Positions 10,291-61,567 of a DNA stretch of 64,000 bases are shown here, in pieces. The notes below the pieces were generated by a model. That model was not told the DNA's origin, did not search any database, and worked only from the letters and a program-made list of their open reading frames with translations. The position numbers were made by a program, and so were the translations under genes. Position 1 is the first letter of the stretch, and the number at the start of each line of letters is the position of its first letter. The stretch is from assembly GCA_025617745.1 (NCBI GenBank), contig CM046854.1:60345606-60409605 (forward strand), in the 5' to 3' direction. The DNA is from Heliocidaris erythrogramma. Taxonomy: Eukaryota > Echinodermata > Echinoidea > Camarodonta > Echinometridae.

Positions 10291-10376
10291 TAATACGGAA
10301 GCCTTCTACAGCGCCGGTATCCGCCAACTCAGGCGCTACATAGCGCCTGCTCCAAAATTTAAAAAAAAATAATAAT

Positions 10377-11340
10377 TTCTTGGTACTACAAAATTTCAAT
10401 TTATCACTTCCGTCTACCGCAAGCCCACATTCACCGGGCAATACACGAGATGGGACTCGTACAGTGCAACTTCATACAAGATTGGGCTCATTAGAAACTT
10501 AGTGTGCCGCGCCCTTAGGATTTGCTTTGAGTGCAAATTAGCTCCCGAAATCGCGAAAATCAAAACTATTCTCCTTGACAATGGTTACCCTGAGCATGTT
10601 ATATCTCGCACCATAACACGGACGCTGGAGGCACAATCCAAATCTGACACCAGATTTGGACCTGCCAAATGCCCCGTGTATCTCAAACTACCCTGGAGGG
10701 GTAAGGTATCTGACAAATACGCCAGTCAGATCAAACACGCAGTGTCACGTTGCTATTACGCGGTTTCGACACGCATTGTGTTTTCTACACACAGGATGCT
10801 ACCGTTAACTAGCAAGGATGTACTTCCCACCCCCCACTTGAGTAATGTTATTTACCAATTTCAGTGCCGGTGCGATGCCAGGTACGTGGGCCGTACTTCT
10901 CAGCGGTTGGCTGATCGCATTAAACAACACGTCCCCTCGACTATTCGGAACCGTACAACCAATCAGCGCACGCAGCCCGTCCGTGCCTGCAAATCTGAAA
11001 TGCACGCTAACAGACCAAAGATAGCCAAATGCGATTCAGCGATTGGTCTCCACTTGCTGAACAATCCAGCTTGCGCACAAAGCTATGCCGATGATCAATT
11101 CTCAATTTTGTCCCGGGCCAGAAGCTCTCTGGAAGCCGCCTACATTCAATCGCACGAACCCCTTCTGTGCAGACAATTGTTCTGAAATTACGGCGTCTGG
11201 GTTGCCTCCGTGTTCATCGAGTATAATGTAGTTGATTTCAAGTAATTTGTTATATACCTGCGTGATAACCTGATGAGTGCAGGTCGAAAAACTTCGTTAT
11301 CATTTCTCTTTTTCGTACCATATTGATATAATACATAATT
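10377..11340 (+). mobile_element. Penelope-like element, 3' part (RT end plus GIY-YIG endonuclease)
   Basis: The frame that includes VYRKPTFTGQYTRWDSY (about 10411-10461) runs to a stop near 11185. The first motif is typical of the end of Penelope reverse transcriptase. It is followed by a GIY-YIG-type nuclease (VIYQFQCRCDARYVGRTSQR, then LADRIKQH, about 10846-10935) and an HLLNNPACAQ region. The element is truncated at 5'. Compared with the copy at 45.5 kb it lacks two short stretches near the C-terminus (after LSRARS, and before the final LF). The untranslated tail ends near CTTCGTTATCATTTCTC. Not an active copy. Confidence 0.85.
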
Positions 11341-14508: not shown

Positions 14509-14578
14509 ATGTTTGCAATTTCAAATATACCGATTGTTGGATTCACAGGATTACTTATCTCTGTGTGCCTTTTTTCTG
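14509..14578 (+). CDS. Receptor exon 1: start codon and signal peptide
   Basis: ATG at 14509 has A at -3 (ACCATGT). The 23 full codons have a short polar start and then the hydrophobic stretch IPIVGFTGLLISVCLF, followed by SG, a plausible secretory signal with a small-residue cleavage site. The exon ends at the donor G|GTAAGT in phase 1, which matches the acceptor of the Ig exon 7.3 kb downstream. An upstream in-frame GTG exists but the ATG is preferred. The long intron and the small exon make this the least certain join. Another first exon could be used instead. Confidence 0.62.
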
Positions 14579-20500: not shown

Positions 20501-23500
20501 TAAACAGCACATAGTGGGCGCGGTTCGGAGAAATTGAAAAAGCGCGCGCCGGAATTGACCTTTACTTCCTAGGTCATTTAGCTGGATCCTGTGCGATGCA
20601 AAGCAACGGAGTGTCGTCACATATCTCAGCAGCGTTCGAGGAGCTCTTCAGCTGCTATATCGGGGGCTGTATTTTACCGTTTTATAATTGATAATAATCA
20701 TTAATTCAAATGTTTCCAAGCTTTAAATTTGGATAACCTTGTTTAATTTATGCCATCTATGCAATAATAAGTATTAAGCCAATATTTAAAATCATTAACG
20801 TTCTACTTTAAAGTTTCAAGGTCTGAGTTTTAAATCAGCAAGTAGATAAATTGTCTGAAACTTGCACTCTAAATTCTCACAAGAGACATGAACAAATAAG
20901 GTATACACTGCAGTTAGAGTATAAATACGACTAATTCTTTAATGAGGGTTGAACTACTCCATAACAGAGTAAAAGTGACGTACAATATACCTGGTTAAAT
21001 CTGGTTTGAAAATATTAAACGAAAGGCCGATTATTTAAATATACATATAAATTATTCTAACAGACCATTGTCAGTTCATCGTGAAGTTACACGAAACAAA
21101 GCGTTGGGTGTTGAGACAAGTGTCCATGGTGCATGCACAGAACGATAAAAAAAATAAATAAATAAATAAATCCCTTCGCCTCCCCCCCCCCCCCCACAAA
21201 CTCCCTCTCTCTCTCTCTCTCTCTCTCGGTGGCGTTTCTAGGGATTTGATGCCTGGGGCAAACAATAGAATTGCGGTTCACCCCCCCCCCCAAAAAAAAA
21301 AAAACAAACAAACAAACAAACAAACAAAAACAAAAACAAAAACAAAAAAAAAATCTCACCCGTCCTCCCAAGCTTATCAGCTCAATAATTAAAAAAGAAA
21401 CAAATTAATTCCCAGTTAGAATTAAGGAATTGTTGCACGTCGTGAAAATTATTTTCGTTGCTCTAAACATTTTTATTTTTAAACCCAGAAACGCAATTTA
21501 TTATGCATTTGTCCATGGGAAAATTCGCAAGGGAGTAATGCAACCCGCTTTAGAAATTCTTTCAAATCTTAAACATATTTGTTTATATAACCCCTAACCC
21601 TAAACCCTTCAAATGCCTTTTTCTCATGCTGCACCTTTCACTGCATTGGGGCTTTAGGCCTAATTCATTATCAGTTTAAAACATATGCACCGTAAGGAAA
21701 ATTTGACAGTAGGCCATATCATGCCAATTTGTCTGGATAATGAAATAATTGTTATATCCCTTATTATTTCTGCATTTAGGGATTGTTACTAGGGATGATG
21801 TAAATTAATAGACAGTATGATTTATATCCGTATTGATCTAGGCCTTGGTATTTCTGGGCAGACTGTTGACACATCAGATCGGGAGATTATTGTGGAAGTG
21901 GGAACTACAGGTATTCTACCATGTCCTACCCACAGACGGTCCTACTCAGTTGAATGGACAAGAGAAAGGACATCCGAACATGAGGTCCTTGTATCTCTTG
22001 ACACTTACTTTATAGTTGGTGCCAGAGATGGCCCTGGTTATAAGGCAGGGTTGTTCAATATCACAGAGGACTATTCGCTGGTCATCAAAGATGTCAAAGT
22101 GCAGGACGAAGGACTATACGTCTGCGAAGTGGCTGATTATGAAACGGGGAAACTCTTCCGGAACAGGATATTAGTATCCGTGCAAGGTAAGACAAACACC
22201 CGCACACACAAGTAGTCAAAGGGTCAGAGACAGAGAGAGAAAGAGTGTCGGAATAGATCTTGAGATTCTATTCTTTTTGTTTCACAGCGAATAATCATTC
22301 AATTAAAGAGCTCATATGTTGATTTTTTTCCGACCCCCAATTGCAAGAATATGGTTTGTAAATAAATAATAAACATTGAAATAAAGGTTTCATCAATTTT
22401 AGCAAATAATTTTTTTTTTTTGAATAAAATGCACCCTTGATTATTGCCCTTATTGAGCCAGATTTCTCAAACAGACCGATAAACATCAAAGCGGGGTTGA
22501 CCTGCTATGACGTCACTGGGTAGAGTTGATCAATTCATCCGGTGCATAACGCGCGCTATTGAAATTGTGTGTAAAAAAACATCAACGAGAGTCGCTTTCT
22601 TTCGGGGGAATCCTCACGTTTTGTGGCTAAATGCCACGAAATTACGTTGTGTGTTGGGGGGGGGGGGGGGGGGGGGGGTTACAATACTTTAAAGAACCCC
22701 AACATCAGTTTCTTCACCTTTCCAAAGCTCAATAAGCAACGGAATTTGTGGGTGAAGTTTGTGAAAATTCGGCGAAAAGATTTCACAGCAGCAACACACA
22801 GCAAGCATGCACGAATTTGTAGCGACCATTTCGAAAAATCAGCCTTCGAACGTCACTGCAAGATTGACTTTGGAGATGTAGCTGGCCCGAAATACAAGGC
22901 TAGGTTGAAGAAGGACGTCTTGCCCACTTTCGCCGTATTGTGAAATTGTATTGTTGAATCAATGCCGACATGGTCGTTCTTGCGCTGATTTTGTGGACTC
23001 AGTTCGAAGTCATAGTATCGTTTTTTCCAAAAAATGTCAAGTGACAAGTTAAAACTAACCTTTATTAGGTGTTTCACCAGATATTTCACGGCTGTGACCA
23101 ATATAAGGAAGAAAAGAGCGATTCTCGTAGAGTAGCTCTGTTCTTTTGCAGTGTATCAGATCAAGCCCAGTTTTTCAGAAGTCATTAACTGAAAATGACG
23201 TGCTCACTTTAAATCATCACTAAGAAAGTTATTGATGTTTGAAACCAGTGATGTTGTTGCTGCCTTGGGCTGTCTTTTTTTCCCTTTTGTACTTTATTTA
23301 TGTATTTCCTATCCTCCTCCCTCATGTCAGTTGTATTCATGAATCTCAATTTGCAGTTCTATAGCACATTGTCTACTTCTTTACTCTTTAAATATGACCC
23401 AATCTGAAGATGATGTTTGCAGTTTATTTGAATCCAATGCAAGTACCTTGGAACAATATGATGAAAATGATAAAATTACAATAGATTGTAAATACTGTAC

Positions 23501-44500: not shown

Positions 44501-47500
44501 AAAGAAATACATTTCGGAGCAATAATTATTGGATCCCCGTGTCAGAAGATGCATGAAACCGAAGGTTAACGAAACCTTATCAATTGGTCTAATGGACTTA
44601 CATTCTTCTGGGCTGCGCCCGATGTGGTCAATATTTCTTGGTGGATCATTCTTGATTATGGTATAATTTGTCATTATATTCTGTACTAGCATCTCCTGAT
44701 GAACAGTATCCATTCATCCGGAAATGTATCGGACAATATGTACAGCGTGGAGCCTGCACTCTTACCGTCGATTCGACATCAAAACTCACCTGCCTTGTGA
44801 AGGGGTATTATCCAGACATTGAACTTTACTTCCTGCACGGATCTGACATTGTGGCATCCACTGAATATCGAGAATGGAACAACACAGATGGGACAAAAAA
44901 TAAGAATGTGACAATTTTGATCGGTGTTAGTGACGAACCCTACAGATGTGTAGCCTCAGGATTACGTGGAATGATTGGAAACAGAACCGTTTCGGTCTAT
45001 GTCGAAGCCCGTTCTCAAGGTCCAAATGCTGCTGCAATCGTTGTTCGTAAGTCTTTATCCATTTACACCCATATCTTTTTATTGCACTTGCTAGAATAGG
45101 AGGTTAGGCCGAATGAAATTGATTCCCGGTTTCTTGTCCCCTCCTCCTTTTTTTACAGCCCGCCTCGATGTCTTTAATATTTAGTAGTTTCTGTTAGACA
45201 TGAAACAAAGAAGAATCTGATGAACCTATACAATTAGAATTTAAGAAAAAAAATGTAGTGCCGTTCCAACTTGTTTTGAGCCACCTTAGTGCTTAGCTAT
45301 ATAAAATTTCATTTCAAAGAGTTTGTGTTGAAATTGATCCAACAGCATTTGTTTGAGCAACGAAAATATCAAACTGAAAAAACTATGTAATCTACAATTA
45401 GATTTTACTTGGCCATACGCATAATTTCAAACATACATTTAAAGGGTAAATAATTTATTGGTACTTCAAAATTTCAATATTGCACGAAAAAAAAAGACAT
45501 GGTAACGAAGCTTTTCGACCGGCACTCATCAGGTTATCACGCAGGTATGTAACAAATTACTCGAAATCAACTATATTATACTCGATGAACCCGGACGCAA
45601 CCCGGACGCCTTAATTTCAGAACAATCGCAAAGCTTGGACGAACTCCTTTTGTCTACACAAAAGGCGTTCCTGCGATTGAATGTAGGCGGCTTCCAGAAA
45701 GCGTAAATGCGCTGCGCTTCTGGCCCGGGACATAATTGAGAATTGATCGTCGGCATACCTTTGTGCGCAAGCTGGATTGTTCAGCAAATACAGACCAATC
45801 CCTGAATCGCATTTGGCTGTCGTTGGTCTGTTAGCGTGCGTTTCAGATTTGCAGGCACGGACGGGCTGCGTGCGCTGATTGGTTGTACGGTTCCGAATAG
45901 TCGAGCGGACGTGTTGTTTAATGCGATCAGCCAACCGATGAAGTCTTCGTTATCATGTCTCTTTTTCGTGCCATATTTAATGGGTACCTATCACCAACAA
46001 ATATTTTGCTCTATATTTTGGGGGTTTCATGCGGCCATAGGATTTTGGGATATTTAGGTCAAAGGTCAAAGGTCACAGAGGTCAATTTCTGAAATTTCAG
46101 GTGTTAGCCTCGTTCTAGCGATAACCCAAGAGCCATTTGGTGTAAGAACTTCAAACTTGGTGCTCAGTGGTATGTATCACCAAACAGTCAGACCCAACTC
46201 CGTAATACCGAGCACAAAGTCAACCTGCCAACGATATAATATTGTTAAAAATAATGCTGCGTGTCAATTATCTTCAAAATCATTGAATGATCGTCATATG
46301 AAGTGAATTTCATATGACAAACATTTGAAATAAATATATCCGCAGCATTATTTTTTTAAAATATATTATCAACAGCAGGTCGACACTGCACGATTAGCCC
46401 ATGCCTTTTGTACACACTGCCTCGCACTGAACGATGAGGGCTCTATATTCATCTTGTTCTATACGCCGTTTTCGGAGTATATACCTGTGCTCGGTATTAC
46501 GGAGTTGGGTCTGAATGCCAAAGGGAGATGATCTGACTAGATTTTGGGGTACGTAGGTCAAAGGTCAAGATCAAAGAGGCAAATTTCTGAAATTTCAGGT
46601 GTTAGCCTCGTTCTCGCGATAACTCAAGAACTATTTGAGGTATGAACTCAAACTTGTACTAGTATGTATCACGATAGGAAGATGATCTGGTTAGATTTTG
46701 GGATACGTAGGTCAAAGTTCAAAGGCCATAGAGGTCAATGTTACAATTTCAGGTGTTAGCCTCGTTCTAGCGATAACCCAAGAACCATTTGATGTAAGAA
46801 CTTCAAACTTGGTACTCAGTGGTATGTATCACCAAAGGAGGATGATCTGACTAGATTTTGTGGTACGTAGGGTAAAGGTCAAGGTCACAGAGGCCAATTT
46901 CTGAAATGTCAGACGTTAGCCTCCTTCTAGCGATAACACAAGAACCATTTGAGGTAAGAACTTCAAACTTGGTCTGGTATGTATCACCAAAGGAAGATGA
47001 TCTGACTAGATTTTAGGGTATGTAGGTCAAAGGTCACAGGTCAATTTCTGAAATTCCAGGTGTTAGCCTTGTTAACGCGATATCTGAAGAGCCATTTGAT
47101 CCATTAACTTCAAACTCGGAAATAGTATGCATCACCATAATGATACGAACTGATTAAATTTTTGTTCATATAGGTCAAAGGTGACAAGTCATAGAGGTCA
47201 TTATACAGGTGTATGTTAAATTAATGTTGTTTTTACCTTTATCACCATATCTCAACTATTTTGTATTCATCACTACGAGGAGATAAGTGATCAGAATTTT
47301 GGGTTATAAGGTGTAAGGTTAAATGTCAAAGAGGTCAATTAACATGTGATTAGAGGCTTTTTATTCGGGTTATCACAATATTTCAAGAACAGTTTGAGCA
47401 ATTAACTGAATTTAGGCGGATGCATATAGGAGACGCAGTCGCATTCATCTTGTTTTCTTCATACTTCTTAACCATTTACCCATATAAGGTCAGGTAAAGT

Positions 47501-50500
47501 GTTTTGAGGTTAGCTTATTATACATTACCCTATGTGTAACACATATATTAAAATGGGAGAAAAAAATCGTATAAATAAGAATAATATAAAGCGTATCACT
47601 GCGTTATGGTTTCCACTATATTTTTAAAATACCACATCAATCACGGTCATATATGACCATGATTATAAAAACTAGTTTTTTAAAAATTGTATCGTAAATC
47701 ATGAAAATTTCAATATGTCGTATATAAAATTAAATTGTCGTATATAAAATTAAAATTAAACTCGTTCATAATATTCCACTTATATTGTTTCCCAGGGGGT
47801 AAAATGAAATGAAGGAGACTTGAGAACAATTCAGGTGTTATGCAGTATACGCAGAGAGCATACGAGACGTTTCAATTTACATATTCGATTTACGATATCA
47901 GAAAAAGAGTAATTTCACTCATTGTATCTTGTATACGCATCGCCTTAATGTTCTCTTTATACTTTTATTTTTTTTTCTAAATACGTTTGTTTTTGCATTA
48001 TTTTGTTGATCAAGCTATACTTATGGTTCTTGGAGTATGCCTTGGCATAGCTGTAGTTTTCAAATCTTATCGTGGAAATGGCAGAGGTGAGTTTATGATC
48101 AGGAGTATTCAATAATGTAGATTTAGAAGGCATATTGTATAATTTAACTATATATTTTCGTTGTATCTAAACCGCAAAAAAATCCCTCGATATTAAAGCT
48201 AAGGCAATTCCAGCATAGCGGACATGACATTCAGACCTATTTGGGTTTATTTAAGACAGTCTTAAGCAAAATCAAAAGTCCTAGAACATATAATATTGTA
48301 TACATATTCAATAAGTGACTTTCATGGAAATATACTGAGCAAATTTCACAATATTGCACTGAATACATGAAATGAAAATGGACTCTTTATAAAGGACATG
48401 ACACAAAATGGACAAGGATTTTTCACTCCTGTGAACAGTTTTGGAGTTTCATGAGTCTAATTTAGGTATTAACAGAAGTTTATAATCATTCTCTAAATAT
48501 GAATATAGTTTGTGAAACGATTAGAGTGCACATTTCCTTGACAGTGCTAAAAAGTGGGTTAACAGACATGACACTTTTGTCTGTTTCTTTTTAAACTCCT
48601 AAAACTTCCCTTTAAAATATTCAAAGGCTCATACAAACCTGATATCAGTAATTTTTGTTGCATTTATATCAATTTACAACCAAAAAATCAAAGCTGAACA
48701 TTGCTTTTGGTGTGAAATAATGAGACTTAAAGTTTTGCCCAAAATTGTCGTCACATTTTGCCCCAAAAGTGAGTTTTTTAAGAAAATCATAAGTAAATGT
48801 ACTTGAATCCTATTGAAAAACCAATCATATTAACGGGGGAGTTTACCGCCAATATGTTACAATCGACTCATCAAATTGTCAATTTGAGATTAGCATAAAT
48901 TTAGTGATCTCATTTTTTAAAACATACATTACTTTCTTTTTCCTTGTCAGATTTCTTTCAAACTTTCACCATCCTGTTTTTCTTATTTTATGCTTTCACA
49001 CATATCACCTTATTACCAATTTCGGATTGCCCTCTAAGCTTTTCTGTTTGATACTAAATATGCCATGGTAGCCTAAATAATTATGGAGTTATTTTCAATT
49101 TTATGATTTTTGGCAAGTGAACATTTTCCGTGGAATTACGCGATCTCCCCCTTCCTGCTTCTGCCAGCCAAAGACGGCGTTTCCAAGAATTCGTACCCCG
49201 ATGGAAAAAATAAAATACGCCAGAATCTGAACTAATACCCGTCGAGCGGTTTTGAATTCCCCATGAGAATCCAAAGCCAAGATTGTATTCTTAAGATAAT
49301 TAGTTTTATTGGGTATTCGATCATTTTAGGGATTGCTTGTTTATTTATTTGTTTTTGTGTGTGTTTGTTGTTGTGGGTTGTTTTTTTTTTGGGGGGGGGG
49401 GGGGGGGGGTGGGGTGTATCTCAACAGATTTGTGAATGAAATTACCCTAATTCGACTTATTAGTCGCTTTATTTCCTTTAATATTAGCATACGCCATAAA
49501 CTCCAGTGGCGTATATACAGCATACTTGCATATGATGAAGCCGGCGTACGACCTCTCACGGTTTAAATGCTCCCATAAATAAGATCATTAAACGTGCACA
49601 GGTTATATGGCACATGTGCAGTCTAGATAATATTACACCGCCCCACCTCCACCCCCCCCCCCCCCCCCTTCCATGTCTGGGCAGGATTTGGCCTCTTGTT
49701 TATCTATTTTTGGATATGCCACTTAACTCCTTACACTAAAGTCACGGTATGGTTCATTTTCCTTTGCAGTTAGGTGCAGTAGACATGACTTTATGCCCGT
49801 ACCCATCGTGACGCATATAAAGGGTGAGACATCATTGAACAATTCTGTATTATGGTCTTTAAAAGATACATTCATAGATTTATCACTGAAGTTCATTTTG
49901 ATATATTCGATAACCCGCTCAGTCGTTTGTACGATTTATTGCATAATTATATGCATATATGCCGGTGTAAAAAACATATTTTTTATTAGTATTTCCTATT
50001 TTCCTAGAAAACTATCAATTTAATGCTGCTTATTTAATTAATTTATATCACATCAATTCGGCAAAGTTCGAGCACTGTGAAAGGCCAGTTGGCAAATTAC
50101 TAATTTGCGGTCATTTTGTCTTTTTAAAGGAGGCAAGTCAATATCTCGATCTTGAAAGACTCTGCCGGACGGTCAAATGACTTATTTTCACACAATAGGC
50201 ACTATTTGAAGGTTAAGATTATAACCAGTTACTATCTAAAATTTTCTTTATTATATTTATAAATCTAATTGAGAAATATTGTGAAACTAAAATGAACAGA
50301 AGTAATATATAGAAATCTACTTATCATAAGGACAACGCTAAATTGGGGCTTTCGTTTACAATTGTATGCTTTTAAAGCATAAACACTTTACTCAATTTGG
50401 TTTTTAAAAGAAAAAGCGTAATTAGCAGTGTCTGACTTACACTTTCAATTAAATACAGTCATGTATAAAACCAGATTATTATGACACACACATGATGAAG

Positions 50501-53500
50501 AGGTTATTTGAATAAATGTATATCACATGATAAACATGATAAAGAGGATGCCTTTTCATTATATTCTTAAATATCAAGACAAAAATAATATCGTTTTGTT
50601 TACATTTATAGCACCCAGACTTATATCAAAACTTGAACTGTGGAAATTGGTGCAAAAAACTAAAGAGAGCAAATCTCTCCTGAAACTAAAGGAAGCTTTA
50701 CGTCGTCTTAGACGGCTGCCGAAAATTGCCGCCTCAAAATTGCTCAAGGACGACGACTACTACGAAAGTCTCTGCATGTGGAAAAGTGAAAAGTCTTCTG
50801 ACTTTGATCAGAGAAAGACATTGTATTCTGCCTGTTGCAGAGTTGGAATGTCCGACGTCATCAGGAAAATGAAAGGTGTGTGAACTGAACATCCAAGGCA
50901 TCACCAAGCCTGCCATCCGTCAAATAGCTAGAAGGGGTCTGGTCTTATTTTCGGATAAAACAAACCAGAGATCCTCTTGATGCCACCCCTTCTAGCTACT
51001 CGACGGATTGATTTTTACTATAAAAATGTGATAGCTCACTTCACTCGATAGCAAAAATGTAGGATGGGAAAAGTTCATATTCTGACTCCTCTCCCCCCTC
51101 CCTCCTCCCTTCTTGAAAAATGTGCCCTTACGCTTATGCCCAGATCGTAGTAAGTGTCCATGGCACTAATGGAATCTAATCATAAATCTCAAGCGGAAAC
51201 ATGTATAGATATATTGTTGTGCCTATGGTATACTCGTACTTATGCTGAAAGATTACATTATTAATATTGTTATCCATAAGGTATACCAAGCGAGTTCGTT
51301 TGTTCGATTTTTTTAATCGTCAAGACATGTAATTTTCTCGGTACAATACTTCTGCGCGTGTTATATCAATCAGTGGGTTTTTTTTCGTTAAATTATCTAG
51401 GGTCTATCTTTAACAGCTTACTTCTTATTGTTCTTAATTAACTATATTTAGAGCGTTGATCGTATGAAGGTATATAATTAATTTCTGAAAATTGCAAGCA
51501 TATATTCATACATACTATAACAAGGAGATAAGTCAACTGTTTACCATGTTTCAGATGGAGTTATGCAAATAGGTATTTTGCATTTTAAAAAATTAGAAGA
51601 AAAAAATATATCTACTCTTTTCTTGGTTTTGCACACAGATTTTGTTATGGAAACATCTGATGAACTATCCAGAGAAAACATGGAGCACATTTTATGGGAC
51701 ATTCGAGATACGAGCACAATAATTGAACTTTTAAAAGCCCTGGGACTAGATCATGAAGCAGTTGCTTTAGCGCATGAAAAAGGGAGAAGAGTGGTGATTG
51801 ACATGGCACTGAAGGAGCTACTGAAATGGCGAATTCGAGACTTCGCAATTAACCCCATGGTTACCTTGAGTTTGAAGTTAGATGACCTTGAGTGCGAGAC
51901 AAACTTTTTTAAAGGTAAGTTAACAAAATGTCTTAAGGATTTAAGTGTGAAAGCCTCTTTCGATTCTGCATATTGTGGTGTTAATAATGAAAGCTTCTTT
52001 ATGTTTTTAAAAGTTCAGAAAGAAGCACTTGGATTTTTTTTTTGCGAAAGAATAGTCATTTGACAAGTTTATGTCATCACTTAAATCAGATCAAAATTCA
52101 TTGACTGTGATACACAATCATCAATATTAAGCATAAGGTTAGTAGTTTTGTAGAAAAGAATGTAATGTTGACATTAATTGTTGCCTTCAGACTTTACATA
52201 ATCATAAAGGATTCATTTGTTTTGGATGTATATGTCTTTTTTAATAAAAAAAAACAATAAATAAGCATTTTCTTAGAAACAGGCAGGGGCGTTGGTAGCG
52301 GCGGGGTGGGGGGGGGGGGGTGTCGGCAAATGCGCCACCTCTGTCGGCAAATAAGAAAATGAGAAAATGAAAACGGGAATAGGCTGCAGTCAACCCCCCC
52401 CCCCCCCCCCGAGGATTTTCAAAGTTCCAATATTCGGGCAACAACCACTTCATATTCGGGAGGCGAAGTTAGGTGCCAGAATATTAACATATTTGGGCAG
52501 GGAGGTTCACAGGTAATTATGTAACTGCTCTATGTAGCTTCTGTACATGTTCTCTACGAACAGTTTCTAAAGATTGACATTTTGAAAATTTTGAAATTGG
52601 AAAGTTGATATTCGGGCAAAAGGCGTCCCCTTTCGGCAATGGGCTGCAGCCCCCCTCCCCCGAGAATTTTTAAATTTCCCATATTCGGGCAACCACCACT
52701 TCGTACTCGGGCAGCAAGAAGCCAGAATATCCACATATTTGGGCAGCGAGGTTCCCAGATAAACTTCCATATGTAACTTATGTACATTTTCTCTACAAAA
52801 AGATTTACAGATTTTTCTTGCTCGCTTCACTTGCTCATAAAAATTTGGAAATTGAAAACTTGATATTCGGTCAAAAGGCGTAAGCCCCCTCCCTGCAAAA
52901 ATTGGCTTGTATAATCAAGATTTCTACATCTGTGATTTCCTTTTATCGTACTTTGGATTCAGCAGCGTTACGCCGCAAATTGGGCCATGTGTGAGTAATA
53001 GTGCGCCAAAATAGGGATTTGGTCAATGAAACATAAAATTAAATTTTTTCACGTTCTAAGTAAAGATTTCAACGTGTAGAATACCTCTGAGCAGTATTCC
53101 TTCTTGAAATTAGTTCTAAGTGGGTAATTGTTATTCCAAAAGACCGGAAACTTTTATTATTTGTTATGCATTGTGTAAAATGCAATACTGCGTTTCATTA
53201 AAGGTTTTTGCCAAAACGGATTGTTTAATGCACTTCAAATTGAAGATGCTTACTTCAGAATAGTTTTTTTTTTTAAATAATGATTATGAGTTAACAGGCG
53301 AACTCTTATTTCTCTCGAAAGTAATTTTGGATGAAACACAAAATATTGCAGAGAAAATAGCATTATTTATACGCAAAGTTGGTCAACATTTCCGCGCTGA
53401 AAATCTCATGATCGCCTTTCTTATAGTTTATGCTTTACACTGCTACCAAATTTGTCTGCTACTTTTTGCAACTTTTTGAGTAAGAACCAATTTTCCACCA

Positions 53501-56500: not shown

Positions 56501-59500
56501 AAATTTTGTATTGAGATGAATCTCAGTGCCCTCCGTCCTTTATAGGGTCAAAGGTTATATTCTTTTTGCGCTCTAGCTGCCACATTTCTTGATGGATTCC
56601 TTTCAAATTTTGTATTGAGATGTATCTCAGTGCAATCTACATATTTGTACTTTTTGATAACGCTGCCCTCATTGATCCATCCTTTATAGGGTCAAAGGTC
56701 ATTTGTTCCTTTCTTAACGGATTTCTTTCAAATTTTGTATTGAGATGTATCTCAGTGCCCTCCGTCCTTTATAGGGTCAAAGGTTATGTTCTTTTTGCGC
56801 TCTAGCTGCCACATTTCTTGATGGATTCCTTTCAAATTTTGTATTGAGATCCATCTCACTACCATCTACATATTTATACATTTTGATACTGCTGCCCTTA
56901 TTGTTCCGTCCTTTATAGGGTCAAAGGTCATATGTCTTTTGTGCGCTCTAACTGCAATATTTTTTTGATGGATTTCTTTCAAATTTTGTATGGAGGTGTG
57001 GCTTAGTAAAATCTACACATCTTTAGTGTTTGGTGATGTTGCCCCAGTGTTTCGTTTTCATAGGGTCAAAGGTCATATTTTAATTGATATATCGTGTCAT
57101 ATTTGGTTGCTGTCTTGCATGCACTCTGGCGGTCACATTTTTCGACTGATATCTTTCAGATTTTTTATGGACGTCCATTATAGTTTACTGTAGACCTCTC
57201 CAGATTTTGGCGATGCTGCCCCCAGTGTTCCGTCCTTTATAGGGTCAAAGGTCATTTGTCCCTTTGTGCGTTCTTACTGCCACAAATTTTGTGTGGAGGT
57301 GTATCTTGGTCAAATCTACACATTTTAAACTTTTGGTGATGCTGCCACCAGTGTTCCCTCTTTTATAAGGTCAAAGGTCATATTTTGGATGATGTCTTGT
57401 GTGGGCCCTACAGACCATATTTCTTGACAGATTCCTTTCAAATTTTGTATTGAGATCCATCTCACTACCATCTACATATTTATACATTTTGATACTGCTG
57501 CCCTTATTGTTCCGTCCTTTATAGGGTCAAAGGTCATATGTCTTTTGTGCGCTCTAACTGCAATATTTTTTTGATGGATTTCTTTCAGATTTTGTATGGA
57601 GGTGTGGCTTAGTAAAATCTACACATCTTTAGTGTTTGGTGATGCTGCCCTGGTGTTTCGTTTTCATAGGTTCAAATGTCATATTTTAATTGATACATTG
57701 TGTCATATTTTGTTGCTGTCTTGCATGCACTCTGGCGGTCACATTTTCCGACTGATATCTTTCAGATGGTGTATGGACGTCCATTATAGTCTACTCTAGA
57801 CCTCTCCAGTTTTTGGTGATGCTGCGTGTGTGTGTGTGTGTAATTGGGTTTTTTACAGACGTGTATCAATCAGATATGATTATTTACGTCTGGGACTGAC
57901 CTTTAACGTCACCATCCGAAAGACGTGACTCAGTCTCGAACCTGGGTCCGCTGAATCAATTTATAACTTCCACTGGTAGCTGGATTACAGGCGCACGCCA
58001 CAACGCCCCTGCTGCTCCCAGTGTTCCGTCTTTTATAGGGTCAAAGGTCATATTTCATCCCATCCATGATTGTTTTTCTTTTTTTTTTTCTTTTTTTCTT
58101 TTTCTTCTTCTTGTTCTTCTTATTTCTTTCTTTTTGAAGACACATACTAACAGAAAAAGTGAAGCCACACTTGGAGGTTGTTCTCTTTTTAGGTATTGAT
58201 AATACATCCTATATTTACGATACGCTTTCTCGTGTTTTATTTAATTAGTACCAATGGGCCAGAAGGAGGAAATAAGTGTGGATGATATTAAGGACATATG
58301 TTGTCAGATGTCTAAGCAACACTACGCGTATTTGCTGGAAGCTATTCGAGATAAACATCGAGAAGAGCTGTGCTATCACGTCGAGAGCTTTGTTGATGAA
58401 AACAACGCATCGCTCTTCGACACGACCCAAATGCTCATTGACTGGTTAGAAGGTCAAGAGTGCAGTGATTATGAGAAAAGAAGTAGACTTCAAAAAGCTT
58501 CAGAAGCTTTTTCACACAGAGATCTCAAAGGTGAATAGTGAGATATCTATTCCTTTGTTTATTTTTTTAATAGAACAGAGAATTTGTGAAAACAATAGTT
58601 TCCCTGATCGTTTTCAGATACCGTCATTATTTGTATATATTTTCAACTTGTTTTCAATTAATTTTTTCATTACCATTTGTAAATCGGGAAAATGAGCCCT
58701 GGAGAAAGATAAATGAAGCAATATAATTCATTTGCTTTCTCATGTACATAAACATGCCAATTGTATATCGGGTACGATTACACAATACAATGTACGAGCA
58801 ATTAGATCTAATTCCTCAGTTCTTAACAAAAAATCTTGTCTTGTCTTTCCGTTGATGCCCACAATCAAATTAGCATGGCACTAAATAAACCATTGTCCAA
58901 GTTTTGCGTTAATTCTTATCAGTATTCGCTTCTCTGTATGGTCTAATCTATAAAAAAAAAACACACCCAGAAACAGTAAAGTGGCCTCCTGACGATGAGC
59001 TGAGAGTCATCGCAAGTTTTCTCTCTTCTGCGTCAATGGGACTACTATGCTCAAAGCTTCACATCAAACGCCCCCCTTTTGAAGCTAATGGTGAAAAACG
59101 ATTCCAGGCACTCGTCGAGTGGAGAGACAATAGTGTCTTGTCAGACGTTCTGACAAAGAAACACACTGAGCTTTTCACTGCACTCAAAGAGATCTGTCAA
59201 GGAGGTAAATGTCACATTATTTCAAAAAGTTTTATTCATGTAAAAGGATGGCCTGTAAGAGAGGGGACTAGAGGTTTCGATCTTTATCTGCTTTCGTAAA
59301 ACATTGGGGTCAATTTCTTATCTAATTTGATGATTCCAAAACAAAGTATAAAACAATTCTTATGTAGACATGGTCAAACTTTCACAATTCCTTTGAGACA
59401 GTTTCTTTCACAATGTAATTACATGACCAGAACTCTACTTTATATTTAACCTATTTTCTCCCACATTTTGGTAGGCCTGATAAGTAGTAAAAAAGGCCAG

Positions 59501-61567
59501 TTTGTCTACAAAGCTGAACTAGTGGACTTGGCGTTTCACCTGTTCGCGCAGGACCTTCTTCCTTTTACGGAGGCTCTGTGTATCAGTGCTGCTAGACTCA
59601 TTACCTACAAACCTGTATTTCATCCTTCGCACATGACGATGGGTACCATCGGCCTTGTCTGTCAGCTCTTCGGTGGTGTTACCAAGCAGGAAAATGAAGA
59701 CAGCTCCCTTTTCTTCAGTCTTCTAAGTCAGATGCCATATCCAAACGTATCTGCAAGTGGAATGCTTGGTGAGTCGTTGTGGCAACGGAAGTACTTTTAT
59801 CTTTAGCAATTTATATTTAAGAAAATAGCTACAGGATATTTCGAATATACATGTACTAATCTTTTTTTTTCCTTTTTCAATATTTACTTTCTTCCTTTTT
59901 TATAGACTGATTAACAGCATCAAAGACTTAATCACTATATTAGCATACTGTGAATGCTAGGTTAAGTAGGCCTGTATCTTTTCCGACTTTAGATACAAAA
60001 GAAAAAGAATGGCATACCATTTCTTTATGTGTCTTATGAATTAATTCAAGGCCAAGTAATAATATTGATTTATTATTTTTATTCTCATCAAGCTCTTAAA
60101 ATTAGCTACGGAGAAATGTGTGCCATGTCTGTTGATCCTGAAAGTTGTCATGAGCAACGAAGAATGCAGCCTTCAAGAATCAGAGTTTCTATGTCCAACT
60201 CTGAAGCAGATCATAACAGCTTCAGAGGTTTCATCGGAAACAACATTCGCCAAGTGGATGACGTCAAGGTCATGCTATCAAGATCAAATCTCGAAGCATC
60301 TCGTTTGGAAATGGGGAAAGATACCACATACGACGAAACAATGAATGGTCTTATGACCATGCTAACTTCAACAGATAAAGTTGAAGACAATAATTATATG
60401 TGTCCTCAAACCATGTCCGCCCTCGAGCACTTCAAAGTTTGGAGGGAACAGCCACGCCTGACACCATTTAATTTTCGCCTAGCTATAGCTAAGGGTTTGA
60501 GAAGCATGGGCAAACATCACCGGGTATCTGCTATCCTTCAAGGTTAGGAAACCTATCCATTGTATTCATTGGTCATTATAGTGAATATTTCATAAAGTAT
60601 AACTATATGCAAATAAGCTTGTCCTCATGCATTGCTGAATCCTCTTGCCATTTGTATACTGTTTGGAACTTGTTGAAAGCAAGCTACTTATCCTGTGTGA
60701 TTAGTCGTCAATAAAATCGTTGGCATTGTTTCAAAGTCTCAAGGTGATGAAGCTTAAAGGGACATGTAGACCGACAGCCCACGAGACCGACAGCATTGGT
60801 GTAGTTAACCCTCAGAAAGGTTGACAGCTGGCTCACGAGTTCGACAGGTTTGGTGGGCTGTAGTCGAAGTTTAAATGATATGGAATACCTGATAGGAACT
60901 GATTTTATGTAAGACTGTTGAGGAATGAGCTATTTCCTATTTCTAATAAATGTATGTCGCTCTTTTCAGTAAGGCTGTTTTTAAAGAAAAAGATCATATT
61001 CACTGATGTGCAGTGGAAACATCGGCTAACGCTGGGGTCTTAACTAAAAATTGGGCTGCATTTTGTTTTGTTTTCTTGTATTGATTTTATTTATATGTTG
61101 TTGCATTTGAAACTGATATGTGTTCCATACCTGCTGCAATTTTTCATACAGGGGATTACAAGAAAGGGAAGATACCGTTTACATTCATTTGCAACATTCT
61201 CCGAACCATGGATCCTAAGGAACGTTGCATCCTTGGTAATCTAATCAGAGACGCACCGTTCACCCCAGTCGCAGCGAGAGTGTCTATTTTCCCCATGGAA
61301 GAGGAAGAATGGTCTCGAATGGCAGACGATGCAGTAAGTCGAAATATGCATGCCTGGACAGAGGAATGGATACAACAGATGATTCCAACCAAGTGGAACA
61401 AAGGAAAGAATAGTTTTCTGTCGACTACAGAAATAGCCAAGGAGCACAAGGAATTCAACGACAAGCTTGTGGATCATGGCTTTTTCGACCTAGCACGCGA
61501 GATAATGATAAGCGAGCAACAACTGATAAATGTAGATTGCAGCTATCAGGGATTTGATTTGATTTGA
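14509..61567 (+). CDS. Predicted 12-exon gene: Ig-superfamily transmembrane receptor with tandem death-like modules (1037 aa)
   Basis: Spliced by hand: 14509-14578, 21842-22186, 44690-45046, 48015-48086, 49770-49823, 50612-50875, 51639-51914, 58249-58530, 58971-59204, 59475-59768, 60093-60542, 61152-61567. Lengths sum to 3114 nt including the stop, with every join in frame and every intron phase 1. Predicted layout: signal peptide 1-23; Ig V-type 24-138; second Ig 139-250; membrane helix about 252-273; basic juxtamembrane segment to 299; then seven exon-encoded helical modules to 1037. Death folds normally pass signals by homotypic assembly at the inner membrane face. Ig ectodomains bind ligands. 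I infer an immune or cell-death receptor. Uncertain points are exon 1, exon 5 and whether modules 5-7 are true death folds. No transcript data were available. Confidence 0.75.
15190..15990. repeat. MITE-like repeat with CTGTAAAA motifs, interrupted by a SINE
   Basis: CACACTGTTAAAAAATATG near 15211 and TGTAGTTTTACAGTTATTAG near 15399 suggest inverted ends, and TTTTACAGG recurs inside. The second part after the SINE has more TTAACAGG motifs. Lies in receptor intron 1. No coding. Confidence 0.45.
15495..15685 (-). mobile_element. SINE with 7SL/Alu-like head and (AC)n tail, copy 1
   Basis: On the minus strand it opens with GGCGTTGTGGCGTGCGCC then TGTAATCCAGCTACC, closely resembling the start of 7SL RNA and Alu. 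GGTTCGAGACT follows, a good B box for RNA polymerase III, with the A-box-like TGGCGTGCGCC upstream. The middle has GGTGACGTTAAAGGTCGGTCC, similar to domains shared by marine invertebrate SINEs. The 3' end is an (AC)n run. The element is flanked by a perfect 13-bp duplication, TATCTAGTTAATT, at 15482-15494 and 15686-15698. Copy 2 is at 57826. Confidence 0.8.
15991..16904. other. non-coding intron 1 sequence
   Basis: AT-rich with short A and T runs. I see no gene or clear repeat here. Confidence 0.4.
16905..17135 (-). pseudogene. Tx1/L1-like LINE reverse transcriptase scrap
   Basis: On the minus strand the frame reads KPNKDKGLLESYWPISLINV then DAKII, the classic RT block with YRPISL (here YW). 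After a frame break comes GRSIAEAFRKMHDAF, close to the next RT block. Only about 200 bp are left and there are stops, so it is a relic inside receptor intron 1. Confidence 0.65.
17750..18095 (-). pseudogene. possible coding remnant, unknown product
   Basis: On the minus strand a frame reads GHRDDVIYHVQPSSIS and EPRKKPPNTAQDDTNE. After a one-base shift it continues as SEEEDTLEQKDSSSSESE, then MPESPEVVKMPTPEREKG and a Lys-rich tail ending at a stop near 17758. Acidic-Ser then basic composition looks protein-like, and the start might be the end of a retroelement integrase. I do not recognise it and the frame is broken. Confidence 0.3.
18657..19175. repeat. minisatellite, about 17-bp unit, about 30 copies
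   Basis: Tandem units of the form GGACAACTACCCCCTAG vary at a few positions (CCA for CTA, loss of TAG). Higher-order repetition is visible: blocks ending CCACCCTCTAGGACAACTAC recur. One unit has an expanded poly-C. It lies in receptor intron 1. The long glycine/valine-rich reading on the minus strand is an artefact. Confidence 0.9.
20190..20425. repeat. repeat with GTGTTTATCG inverted ends and internal duplications
   Basis: GTGTGTTTATCGGGGCGA near 20195 is mirrored by CGGCGATAAACACAACGCGA near 20382. CGATAAACACGAACGCGACT occurs mid-way near 20275. The segment GATTAGCTTACCAG is repeated (ATTAGCTTACCAG at about 20245 and 20307). It looks like a MITE built from subrepeats. CpG content is higher than its surroundings. 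Confidence 0.5.
20426..21841. other. non-coding end of intron 1 with low-complexity tracts
   Basis: Contains an AC run near 20430, poly-C and CT runs at 21181-21228, and a C-run/A-run block with AAAC repeats at 21281-21352. The rest is AT-rich with a CCCTAACCCTAAACCC-like stretch near 21591. No gene is seen. Confidence 0.5.
21842..22186 (+). CDS. Receptor exon 2: immunoglobulin V-type domain
   Basis: 115 codons, phase 1 at both ends (acceptor TGATCTAG, donor AAG|GTAAGA). It has the full V-type signature: Cys51 in GILPC, Trp62 in VEW, and the F-strand pattern DEGLYVC with Cys118. The 67-residue gap between cysteines and the extra strand region (YFIVGARDGPGYKAG) fit a V-set rather than an I-set or C2-set fold. 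A glycosylation site NIT is at 96-98. The final strand NRILVSV leads straight into the splice. There is no recombination signal and no J segment, so the domain is germline-fixed. It should be extracellular and ligand-binding. Confidence 0.9.
22629..22943 (+). pseudogene. THAP zinc-finger domain relic with poly-G insertion
   Basis: After a poly-G run (22657-22678) the frame reads ISFFTFPKLNKQRNLWVKFV, then KIRRKDFTAATHSKHARICSDHF and RLKKDVLPTF, ending TGA at 22941-22943. FP, W, ICSDHF and LPTF are the diagnostic THAP positions, including the C-x2-H of the zinc site. The beginning, ATG at 22631 with MPRNYVVC, is in a different frame from the rest, so the poly-G has probably expanded into the first zinc-site loop. 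THAP domains occur in host regulators and in P-element-type transposases. Only the domain remains, inside intron 2. Confidence 0.72.
23240..24655 (+). mobile_element. LINE 5' half: ORF2 endonuclease and start of RT, decayed
   Basis: From 23394 an ORF2 start is followed by the AP-endonuclease motifs LIHLNICSM and VIGISETWFS. The endonuclease goes on after a frame break at 23760 with FLMGDYNLNLLNCD and TKPTRVSDNSSTLIDNIFTN to 24157. After a deletion the linker and RT start follow (KNKLYYKYQRTK, KVDSLKIGKSPGCDNISNNL) to about 24655, where the element stops. The family looks the same as or close to the LINEs at 1-1210 and 61600-64000. Frameshifts and deletion make it inactive. Confidence 0.85.
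24656..25183. other. non-coding intron 2 sequence
   Basis: AT-rich, with no gene or obvious repeat structure. Confidence 0.4.
26122..26530. repeat. module X, copy 1 (also 31629-32020, 33785-34195, 35641-36048, 36095-36500)
   Basis: About 400 bp starting TTTAGTGTGCACCATA, holding a T-run/G-run junction (TTTTTTTTGGGGGGGG) that varies in length between copies. It ends near GTCGGACTATCGGACCTTCT. Copies are almost identical outside the homopolymer, so duplication is recent. None encodes a plausible protein. Confidence 0.75.
28217..29128. mobile_element. MITE, 912 bp, TA target duplication
   Basis: Ends AAGGGGAATTAAC and GTTAATTCTCCTT are inverted, each next to TA. Homology of the arms continues inwards with mismatches (AATATAAATGTGCTC against AAGTACATTTATATT). 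This fits a Tc1/mariner-type non-autonomous element. A perfect hairpin near 28376-28440 (ATATCTTTATGTACACATGAAG with its complement) lies within. It sits inside the 5.0-kb element. Confidence 0.7.
30190..30680. repeat. long hairpin repeat, one end decayed
   Basis: GCTCACTTTTCCTTTTGTAT and the following AT-rich stretch near 30349 are mirrored near 30520-30570 (AAATACACAAGGAAAAGTGA). TGCATTGTTTCATGAAACAA pairs with TACGAAACAATGCAAAAC. The left end AAAGGCCAAGTTCACCCC has no matching right end, so one terminus is lost. Nested in the 5.0-kb element. Confidence 0.65.
32380..36050. repeat. tandem duplication of a 1.84-kb unit (two near-identical copies)
   Basis: 32388-34195 recurs at 34230-36048, offset by about 1842 bp, later 1856 bp because of a longer poly-G. 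Each copy holds module Z (ending GATGATTT) followed by module X. Further partial copies of module Z are at 37695-38110, 38620-38890, 39115-39365 and 41340-42350. A 105-codon open frame is repeated at 32434, 34276 and, shortened, 37763. It is kept only because the copies are young. Confidence 0.85.
36454..37675. repeat. tandem array of about 427-bp units (three copies, last truncated)
   Basis: The junction CCTTTTTTACGTTATTGTCG occurs at 36454, 36880 and 37307, spacing 426 and 427 bp. Each unit carries the TATCGGACC/TATAGAACC minisatellite followed by a unique stretch (CACTGGGATCCCATTCTACA). The third unit is cut short near 37668 and continues into module Z. Confidence 0.88.
39932..41309. mobile_element. 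1.38-kb MITE-type element with GTTCACACGTAG ends and AGCATCGATGCT palindromes
   Basis: The left end GTTCACACGTAG is the exact inverse of CTACGTGTGAAC at 41298-41309. Near both ends are AGCATCGATGCT-type palindromes. CTGAACGTACTGGAAATA near 41230 is the complement of the motif in the element at 13669, so they belong to one family. No coding region is recognised in the centre. Confidence 0.7.
42360..44689. other. non-coding end of intron 2
   Basis: Holds a repeat of the 8420-9330 family at about 43135-43780 with a poly-C run near 43230. At 44040-44180 there is a degenerate minisatellite built from GGGCCGTCGGTCTC-like words. No gene is recognised. Confidence 0.5.
44690..45046 (+). CDS. Receptor exon 3: second Ig domain, constant-domain-like, with stalk
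   Basis: 119 codons, phase 1 at both ends (acceptor GTACTAG, donor GTTC|GTAAGT). The B-strand region LTCLVKGYYPDIEL strikingly resembles the core of vertebrate C1-type constant domains. The disulfide pair is Cys173 and Cys225 (YRCVAS). The A' region holds two more cysteines (151, 161) that could form another bond. The usual core Trp two strands on is not clear (YFLHG takes its place), so the set assignment is uncertain. Sites for N-glycosylation are NNT, NVT and NRT. The exon ends with a short stalk and AAAIVV, the first residues of the membrane helix. Confidence 0.88.
45455..45960 (-). mobile_element. Penelope-like element 3' end (GIY-YIG C-terminal part), fused to an inverted Penelope tail
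   Basis: On the minus strand the nuclease end is read from LADRIKQH near 45930 through HLRFLEAAYIQSQERLLCRQ to a stop at 45617-45619. It matches the + strand copy at 10.4-11.2 kb. Its untranslated tail runs to about 45470. On the right side at about 45938-45978 the sequence AAGTCTTCGTTATCATGTCTC resembles a Penelope 3' tail in the opposite direction, so two element pieces are joined head to head. Lies in receptor intron 3. Confidence 0.82.
46050..47450. repeat. tandem array, about 155-bp unit, with AGGTCA direct repeats
   Basis: About seven diverged units share GGTGTTAGCCTCGTTCTAGCGATAA-type and GTATGTATCACCAAAGGA-type blocks. Each starts with TAGGTCAAAGGTCA or a variant. The unit at 46055 has AGGTCAAAGGTCAAAGGTCA. 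A MITE splits the array at 46185-46517. Located in receptor intron 3. Confidence 0.85.
46185..46517. mobile_element. MITE, 333 bp, with CCAAA target duplication
   Basis: The ends CAGTCAGACCCAACTCCG and CGGAGTTGGGTCTGAATG are inverted with one mismatch near the tip, and the TIR extends through TAATACCGAGCA. CCAAA flanks it at 46180-46184 and 46518-46522. Neighbouring array units show the uninterrupted sequence, which supports the insertion. Confidence 0.82.
47451..48014. other. non-coding end of intron 3
   Basis: AT-rich. A short direct repeat (GTCGTATATAAAATTAAA) lies near 47720-47750. Nothing coding. Confidence 0.4.
48015..48086 (+). CDS. Receptor exon 4: transmembrane helix
   Basis: 24 codons. 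Joined to the end of exon 3, residues 252-273 form an uninterrupted hydrophobic run (AAAIVV then PILMVLGVCLGIAVVF). It is followed by KSYRGNGR, a basic stop-transfer sequence, placing the C-terminal part in the cytosol. Acceptor is CAAG after a T-rich tract and donor is GAG|GTGAGT. Both boundaries are phase 1. The small separate membrane exon is typical of Ig-superfamily receptors. Confidence 0.82.
48087..49769. other. receptor intron 4, non-coding
   Basis: No gene. It contains a T-run/G-run junction at 49380-49415 and poly-C at 49652-49668 close to the exon 5 acceptor. Confidence 0.5.
49770..49823 (+). CDS. Receptor exon 5: short juxtamembrane segment
   Basis: 18 codons between acceptor TTTGCAG and donor AAGG|GTGAGA. 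The translation (VRCSRHDFMPVPIVTHIK) is basic and polar. Exons 4 and 6 would also join in frame without it, so it could be an optional or alternatively spliced cassette. Support rests on good splice signals and matching phase only. Confidence 0.62.
50612..50875 (+). CDS. Receptor exon 6: cytoplasmic death-like module 1
   Basis: 88 codons, phase 1 at both ends (acceptor TTTATAG, donor AAAG|GTGTGT). The first half is basic and helical (KLKEALRRLRRL). The second half carries the death-domain-like end: YYESLCMWKSEKSSDFD, with Trp356, then a last helix TLYSACCRVGMSDVIRKM. This matches the usual helix-5 Trp and the helix-6 pattern of death domains. The N-terminal half is less typical, so a CARD or DED relative cannot be excluded. 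Confidence 0.83.
50910..51015. repeat. small foldback palindrome just after exon 6
   Basis: CATCCGTCAAATAGCTAGAA then GGGGT near 50913 is mirrored by ACCCC then TTCTAGCTACTCGACGGATTG ending near 51012. The spacer also contains complementary words (GGTCT, AGAGATC). A MITE or an RNA hairpin near the donor site. Confidence 0.6.
51639..51914 (+). CDS. Receptor exon 7: cytoplasmic death-like module 2
   Basis: 92 codons, phase 1 at both ends (acceptor TTTGCACACAG after a good pyrimidine tract, donor AAAG|GTAAGT). The layout follows a six-helix death fold: an early helix NMEHILWDI, then TIIELLKALGL followed by DHEAVALAHEKG, the helix-5 motif DMALKELLKWR with Trp451, and a last helix MVTLSLKLDDLE. 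It is one of the clearest of the modules. It lies 28 residues from its Trp to the exon end, close to its neighbours. Confidence 0.85.
51915..53985. other. start of intron 7 with dispersed repeats
   Basis: Two copies of a TATTCGGGCAA / GGGCAGCGAGGTTC repeat lie at about 52300-52520 and 52610-52770, with poly-G and poly-C runs at 52306-52320 and 52396-52410. A purine-rich GAGA stretch lies at 53835-53915. No gene is recognised. Confidence 0.5.
53990..58070. repeat. tandem array, about 150-bp unit, about 26 copies, each with a GGGTCAAAGGTCA motif
   Basis: Units share GATGGATTTCTTTCA, TTTTGTATGGAGGTGT, ACATCTTTAGT, GGTGATGCTGCC and TTTATAGGGTCAAAGGTCAT. Starts of the last motif include 54159, 55002, 55298, 55612, 56289, 56688, 56920, 57063, 57241, 57521 and 58038. 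Higher-order blocks recur (for example, 56985-57180 matches 57590-57790). Short open frames inside it repeat with the unit and are not genes. It fills receptor intron 7. Confidence 0.9.
57826..58009 (-). mobile_element. SINE with 7SL/Alu-like head and (AC)n tail, copy 2
   Basis: Nearly identical to the copy at 15495-15685, including the head TGGCGTGCGCCTGTAATCC, the B box GGTTCGAGACT and the (AC)n end. It is inserted in a unit of the tandem array. TGCTGC flanks it on both sides (57820-57825 and 58010-58015), a short duplication. Confidence 0.78.
58249..58530 (+). CDS. Receptor exon 8: cytoplasmic death-like module 3
   Basis: 94 codons, phase 1 at both ends (acceptor TTTAATTAG, donor AAAG|GTGAAT). 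Helical throughout: DDIKDICCQMS, then HYAYLLEAIRDKHREELCYHV, then the helix-5 motif TTQMLIDWLEGQ with Trp545, then RSRLQKASEAF. The Trp is 28 residues from the exon end. A 6.3-kb intron full of tandem repeats separates it from exon 7. Confidence 0.83.
58971..59204 (+). CDS. Receptor exon 9: cytoplasmic death-like module 4
   Basis: 78 codons, phase 1 at both ends (acceptor ACACCCAG, donor GGAG|GTAAAT). It has DELRVIASFL, then SMGLLCSKLHIKRP, the helix-5 motif RFQALVEWRDN with Trp624, and a last helix TELFTALKEICQ. The L/V-x-W-R pattern is the same as in modules 2 and 6. The length matches a minimal death domain. Confidence 0.83.
59475..59768 (+). CDS. Receptor exon 10: cytoplasmic module 5, divergent death-like
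   Basis: 98 codons, phase 1 at both ends (acceptor TTTTGGTAG, donor CTTG|GTGAGT). Helical pattern: ELVDLAFHLFAQDL, ALCISAARLITY, TIGLVCQLFGG, SLFFSLLSQM. At the position where the other modules have Trp this one has Phe in QLFGG, 32 residues before the exon end. The module is included because its length, phase and helix spacing fit. On sequence alone it is the weakest death-fold candidate. Confidence 0.76.
60093..60542 (+). CDS. Receptor exon 11: linker plus cytoplasmic death-like module 6
   Basis: 150 codons, phase 1 at both ends (acceptor CTCATCAAG, donor CAAG|GTTAGG). The first 50 or so residues are polar and look like a linker (MQPSRIRVSMSNSEADHNS). The rest fits a death-like fold: VKVMLSRSNLEASRLEMG, TMNGLMTMLTS, then MSALEHFKVWREQ with Trp866, and a last helix FRLAIAKGLRSMGKHHRV. 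The Trp is 33 residues from the exon end. Confidence 0.78.
60543..61151. other. receptor intron 11, non-coding
   Basis: Contains a degenerate repeat of GACCGACAGCCCACGAG-like words at 60765-60860. No exon was found. Confidence 0.45.
61152..61567 (+). CDS. Receptor exon 12: last death-like module and stop codon
   Basis: 137 codons and TGA, acceptor TTTCATACAG. It holds FTFICNILRTMDPKERCIL, an acidic stretch EEEEW, HAWTEEWIQQM, then EFNDKLVDHGFFDLAREIM, which looks like a death-domain last helix (L..G..DLA..I). The tail is QLINVDCSYQGFDLI. A LINE begins within about 50 bp of the stop, so the 3' untranslated region and polyadenylation signal may come from that LINE. No AATAAA is seen just after the stop. 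Confidence 0.78.

Follow-up and report, generated by a model that had tools for sequence, protein, structure and literature searches.

Gene structure of the predicted receptor

A stretch of 64,000 nucleotides of the genome of the sea urchin Heliocidaris erythrogramma (assembly GCA_025617745.1, contig CM046854.1, positions 60,345,606 to 60,409,605), here called the window, carries on its plus strand a gene for a predicted single-pass receptor of the immunoglobulin superfamily (IgSF), at window positions 14509–61567. According to translation and a splice-site check, 11 exons join to a predicted chain of 1019 residues with one terminal stop; AG acceptors and GT donors are present throughout, and the internal junctions are all phase 1. 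From the N- to the C-terminus, the chain is composed of a signal peptide, a V-set immunoglobulin (Ig) domain, a C1-like Ig domain, a single membrane helix, and a helical tail coded on seven exons. A first interpretation made from the letters of the window only (the sequence-only reading) gave 12 exons and 1037 residues. Its in-frame joining is upheld, but its counts are not, as 11 exons and 1019 residues suffice. The twelfth exon was rejected as unnecessary, and the alternative acceptors at 51555 and 58923 would lengthen exons 6 and 8.

Exon 1 (14509–14578) carries the ATG start codon and a signal peptide (MFAISNIPIVGFTGLLISVCLFS) with a hydrophobic core, ends in a phase-1 GT donor, and has a copy in a tandem paralogue described below (gene A). 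The introns after exons 1 and 2 are long, with 7.3 and 22.5 kb, respectively. The membrane helix is encoded jointly by exons 3 and 4, and exon 4 (48015–48086) codes for the first cytoplasmic residues as well. The helix occupies residues 255–273 and, with a mean Kyte-Doolittle value of 2.98, represents the hydropathy maximum of the whole chain, in agreement with the single helix proposed in the sequence-only reading. The cytoplasmic tail (exons 5–11) has about 740 residues, the length given there. Net charges are +12 for exon 5, −7 for exon 6, and −8 for exon 7.

Immunoglobulin ectodomain

Exon 2 (21842–22186) matches Pfam V-set (PF07686) with an E-value of 1.2e-10 and 42 bits, the cut-off being 26. 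Both cysteines and the core tryptophan are present, as C51, W62, and C118 of the joined chain with the motif DEGLYVC. The second Ig domain, coded on exon 3 (44690–45046) together with the beginning of the membrane helix, contains C173 and C225 within the stretch CLVKGYYP...YRCVAS; these two cysteines, C51, W62, and the DEGLYVC motif are all at the positions noted in the sequence-only reading. With 13.8 bits it is under the Pfam C1-set (PF07654) cut-off of 21, and the corresponding domain of gene A is just over it, with 21.7 bits. Judged from these profiles, the second domain is C1-like. When the Ig part was compared with PDB sequences, chains of T-cell receptor alpha, CD80, and tapasin-related protein were among the best 60 of 258 matches, mostly over the V domain.

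Modules of the cytoplasmic tail

The tail had been described in the sequence-only reading as about seven tandem death-like modules. In Pfam searches with eight pieces covering the whole chain, exon 5 (50612–50875, the first tail module) matched Pfam Death (PF00531) with an E-value of 1.1e-3 and 19.4 bits, under the cut-off of 22.6; no tail module was above this cut-off, and outside exon 5 there was no match to Pfam Death at all. The gene A copy of exon 5 had 14.3 bits against the same profile. No death-family match was obtained with five modules of a distant paralogue (gene B, see below) and the exon 8 piece of a Strongylocentrotus purpuratus homologue, and ten exon-9 sequences gave no death family and four weak unrelated families only.

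Profiles of the modules were compared by hhalign with six death domains from the genome itself, all of them Pfam-positive (two of eight loci were omitted as identical or nearly identical), with 60 column shuffles per module as a control, which is lenient because column shuffling destroys helical periodicity. With relatives added to the profiles, exon 5 reached a score of 27.9 and a probability of 61%, and exon 8 (58971–59204, the fourth module) 25.3 and 45%, both with 0/60 shuffles. Exon 9 (59475–59768, the fifth module) scored 24.2 over 64 columns with a probability of 29%; none of the 60 shuffles reached this value, the best being 24.0, and the first run also gave 0/60. In its alignment, the DLLPFTEALCIS stretch lies opposite the DWRQLARRLGLS stretch of death domains. 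Lower values were obtained for exon 6 (51639–51914, the second module; score 19.9, probability 9%, 0/60 shuffles) and for exon 10 (60093–60542, the sixth module, death-like in its C-terminal part), with 16.6, 2%, and 0/60, compared with 2/60 in the first run, whose profiles contained fewer relatives. Exon 7 (58249–58530, the third module) scored 14.6 with a probability of 1% over 14 columns only, with 0/60 shuffles and 2/60 in the first run. Exon 11 (61152–61567), which codes for a helical-looking C-terminal module and the stop codon and has a copy in gene A, scored 15.5 with a probability of 1%, and 3/60 shuffles (2/60 in the first run). When the modules were compared with each other, pairwise E-values were below 0.02 only for exons 5 and 8 (score 27.2) and exons 6 and 8 (18.5).

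The predicted fold of the exon 8 module matches the death domains of Fas, TNFR1, and DR3, and also vFLIP death-effector domains. The model of the Strongylocentrotus purpuratus homologue has a mean predicted local distance difference test score (pLDDT) of 46.5 and, apart from the exon 8 module, is of poor quality. One model speaks against a death fold: an AlphaFold model of exon 5, computed from a single sequence with no alignment, has six helices and pLDDT of 71, and its PDB matches are helical repeats and designed proteins, not death folds. It is weighed lightly because it was folded without an alignment.

Support for a death fold is best in exons 5, 8, and 9, moderate in exons 6 and 10, weak in exon 7, and none in exon 11. 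Descent from death domains is probable for exons 5, 8, and 9, as indicated by the profiles and, for exon 8, also by the predicted fold. The count of about seven death-like modules in the sequence-only reading is therefore an overstatement.

Tandem and distant paralogues

The flanks of the window were examined over 100 kb on either side, plus 60 kb farther upstream. Gene A lies at C2:60206427-60226603 on the same strand as the window gene, shares its exon order, and spans about 20 kb. Its signal-peptide exon at C2:60206427 is 73% identical over 22 residues, its V and second Ig exons are 71% and 68% identical, and its tail exons 5, 6, 7, 9, and 11 are 64%, 60%, 52%, 71%, and 69% identical, respectively. 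The membrane exon (C2:60212273-60212347) is hydrophobic, 26% identical, and preceded by an identical intron end. Exon 8 was not found in gene A and exon 10 is partial and broken across two reading frames, which may indicate partial decay of this copy. At the DNA level, the window gene and gene A are similar in the exons, in exon flanks of no more than about 400 bases, and in shared repeats. The ratio of non-synonymous to synonymous substitution rates (Ka/Ks) is 0.47–0.76 in seven of the eight exon pairs compared, comprising Ig and tail exons; the value of 2.28 for the membrane exon pair comes from 23 codons at 26% identity, too short and diverged for use.

The stretch that separates gene A from the window gene contains an additional V exon at C2:60297952-60298293 (window −47653). 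It is open, 73% identical, and has splice sites and a Ka/Ks of 0.48. It may be a remnant, or a V cassette used as an alternative and joined by splicing to the common C1, membrane, and tail exons. A putative signal-peptide exon at C2:60283712 (window −61893) comes from a motif scan over 15 kb, which listed three candidate exons in four rows, and it was not recovered by DNA-level comparison. From the extra V exon to the window gene, no match to the second Ig, the membrane exon, or the tail was obtained by tblastn with an E-value below 0.1, although a short, diverged membrane exon could escape this search.

Gene B, a minus-strand gene at C2:5.46 Mb, is 55 Mb away from the window. Exons 5–10 follow in order within 6.7 kb, with 32–45% identity and with exon 10 matched along 37 residues only, and by sequence this supports the tail exon order of the window gene. 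A search of the 2.4 kb preceding exon 5 of gene B did not reveal an ectodomain or a membrane exon.

Family size and clustering in the genome

Genome searches covered exon 2 (V), exon 5, and exon 9, with 150 of 192 candidates scored for the V exon, 35 for exon 5, and 68 for exon 9. The exon 9 protein matched 54 genomic places (51 without an internal stop and three with a stop codon), exon 5 matched 17 places, and the V exon at least 112 related stretches; these counts refer to exons, not genes, and pseudogenes are possible among the copies. Exon 9 thus has more genomic matches than exon 5, the only other tail module searched. Places with exon 9 are grouped on C7 at 20 Mb (12) and on C2 at 5 Mb (9), 12–13 Mb (17), 48–50 Mb (11), 56.6 Mb (1), and 59–60 Mb (4). 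The window gene, treated as a single gene in the sequence-only reading, is instead part of a multigene family in several clusters.

A V-like exon is present within 60 kb of exon 9 in 44 of the 54 places and absent in 10. The nearest one is on the same strand upstream in 32 of these 44, on the same strand downstream in eight, and on the opposite strand in four. On C7, a V-like exon is located upstream on the same strand, 5–26 kb from exon 9, in 12/12 places. Exon 5 lies within 30 kb of exon 9 in 14 places, always upstream and on the same strand.

At the C7 locus L043 (C7:20511800-20512900) there are two consecutive Ig exons. The first is above the Ig_2 cut-off and has 24.9 against the V-set cut-off of 26, while the second is above the V-set cut-off. 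Because this locus has double Ig exons of this kind rather than V plus C1-like, the ectodomain may vary between clusters.

V-like exons with no exon-9 match were also recorded on C2 at 26.4–27.3 Mb (44–48% identical), on C6 at 50–52 Mb (73–76%), and on C11 and C17. The C2 and C6 clusters perhaps combine a related V domain with another tail, or code for soluble forms. Genome-wide, Pfam Death has at least 137 matching stretches (150 of 338 candidates scored), many of them close together on C6, C21, C10, and C11; the death-domain repertoire of this genome is strongly expanded.

Relative in Strongylocentrotus purpuratus

Protein-database searches gave one relative with Ig plus tail modules. This sole relative, the uncharacterized Strongylocentrotus purpuratus protein XP_011668564.1 (LOC105440288, 432 residues, E-value 6.3e-28), aligns to parts of exons 7–9 with 35% identity (77/219 columns). 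The other protein-database searches gave no relative, and one of them missed XP_011668564.1 too. Ig and tail modules are common to this protein and the window gene, but in the much shorter gene model a membrane helix was not seen by eye. Its N-terminal Ig, by itself under the V-set cut-off, shows 62% identity with the second Ig exon of L043 along 92 residues, so XP_011668564.1 may be a relative of the C7 cluster and not of the window gene. Its sequence supports the view that the combination of Ig and tail is old.

Since gene A repeats the order of Ig, membrane, and tail exons and the Strongylocentrotus purpuratus model fuses Ig to tail, the Ig and tail exons of the window are read as one gene. 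Chance or mis-joined genes are very unlikely as a source of the layout.

Mobile elements and repeats in the window

A THAP-domain open frame (22575–22943, Pfam E-value 1.4e-13) is inside intron 2, directly downstream of the V exon. The same intron contains near-identical blocks in the frame list at 32073–32751, 34230–34593, 36550–37248, and 37751–38047, which represent a recent local duplication. A GIY-YIG endonuclease frame was identified at 10376–11185 (Pfam E-value 1.2e-4) and a GIY-YIG-like frame, by eye, at 45617–45949 on the minus strand in intron 3; both are probably mobile-element pieces. Open frames at 3030–6688 resemble, as read by eye, gag-pol of a Ty3/gypsy-type retroelement.

Proposed function

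The window gene most likely encodes a germline-encoded recognition receptor. That it belongs to a large clustered family of single-pass IgSF receptors with V-set and C1-like domains and tail modules coded on one exon each is very probable. The signalling mechanism is put forward more tentatively, at slightly under even odds. Ligand bound by the V domain would cluster the receptors; the clustered tails, each with several death-fold surfaces, would assemble with cytosolic death-domain adaptors; and this assembly would lead to signalling of the caspase or NF-kB type. The opposite charges of exon 5 and exons 6 and 7 could allow charge-driven death-fold contacts within or between tails. Taken as a whole, the statement that this is a clustered IgSF receptor family whose tails seed death-domain signalling on clustering has a probability of about 0.58. 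A bolder version is doubtful: dozens of germline V-type receptors in tandem arrays, each with a pre-built strand of several death folds, would couple varied V recognition directly to a death-fold signalosome, and the extra V exon would maybe serve as an alternative cassette.

Among other explanations, the tail may be a structural scaffold, with death-fold modules that have lost their assembly surfaces, in a receptor for adhesion or membrane anchoring. The death domain of ankyrins, for instance, is no cell-death switch. A large, tandem, diverging family is, however, more typical of immune recognition than of structural proteins, and this role is unlikely. Less probable still are regulators or decoys, the degenerate modules of which would cap or titrate other death-fold assemblies and damp signalling, as FLIP-type proteins do. 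In favour are the degenerate state of the modules and the presence of vFLIP death-effector domains in the list of fold matches; on the other side, no positive evidence points to a decoy, and the fold matches include the activating receptors TNFR1 and Fas. That the window copy is a functionless duplicate in decay is very improbable. Gene A with no exon 8 and with exon 10 in two frames, and the stop codon in 3/54 exon-9 matches, are signs of decay in the family, but the window copy has 11/11 exons open with GT-AG sites, and Ka/Ks against gene A is 0.47–0.76 in the seven non-membrane exons. The assignment of exons 1–4 and 5–11 to two neighbouring genes, which could be argued from the long introns of 7.3 and 22.5 kb, one holding the THAP frame, is rejected, as the joins are phase-compatible; gene A keeps this order over about 20 kb, its membrane exon lying between second Ig and tail; a second species has the Ig-tail fusion in its gene model; and on C7 each of the 12 places with exon 9 is preceded, 5–26 kb upstream on the same strand, by a V-like exon.

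If the tail of the proposed recognition receptor signals, V-type recognition and a multivalent death-fold platform would be present on one chain, in tandem arrays, as a receptor class in an animal without rearranging antigen receptors. Such a layout could couple recognition directly to a cell-death or inflammation switch, and would offer a testable system for the number of death folds per receptor needed for signalling.

Comparison with known systems

UNC5 netrin receptors have thrombospondin repeats, ZU5, and UPA, none of which was identified by Pfam in the eight pieces of the window chain, and one death domain, whereas the window gene has several death-like modules. MALT1 has an N-terminal death domain and a paracaspase but no membrane helix; the window gene codes for a signal peptide and a membrane helix, and has no protease match in Pfam. 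The death receptors of the TNF-receptor type (Fas, TNFR1, DR3) are similar in being single-pass proteins with a cytoplasmic death fold. Their ectodomains consist of cysteine-rich repeats, whereas that of the window gene is Ig with no TNFR match in Pfam, and the gene also differs in its multi-module tail and large clustered family. Ig receptors of the IL-1R/Toll type have a cytoplasmic TIR domain, to which the window tail has no Pfam match. Vertebrate V-C1 receptors (T-cell receptor chains, tapasin-related protein, CD80) share the V-set domain, C1-like domain, and membrane helix, and are not known to carry death-fold tails. A C1-like domain beside the V domain of an invertebrate receptor would be relevant to how the V-C receptors of vertebrates arose. 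The C1 label alone is not new, as a mussel already has C1-set annotations at the Pfam level (PMC5549309).

A related case is found in amphioxus, where hybrid proteins of innate immunity, products of deuterostome domain shuffling, directly link the ectodomain of a receptor to a cell-death domain, the combination of TNFR with caspase being one example (PMC2575513). In the available part of that source, no Ig receptor with tandem death modules is met among the hybrids. No described family with Ig plus a multi-module death-fold tail was found in searches of the open-access literature, in line with the sequence-only reading, which had regarded the layout as undescribed. In its proposed mode of action the window receptor comes nearest to a death receptor, and in its build to UNC5 or a V-C1 receptor, but it fits the definition of none of these; within IgSF death-fold receptors, the family expansion and the multi-module tail are the new features.
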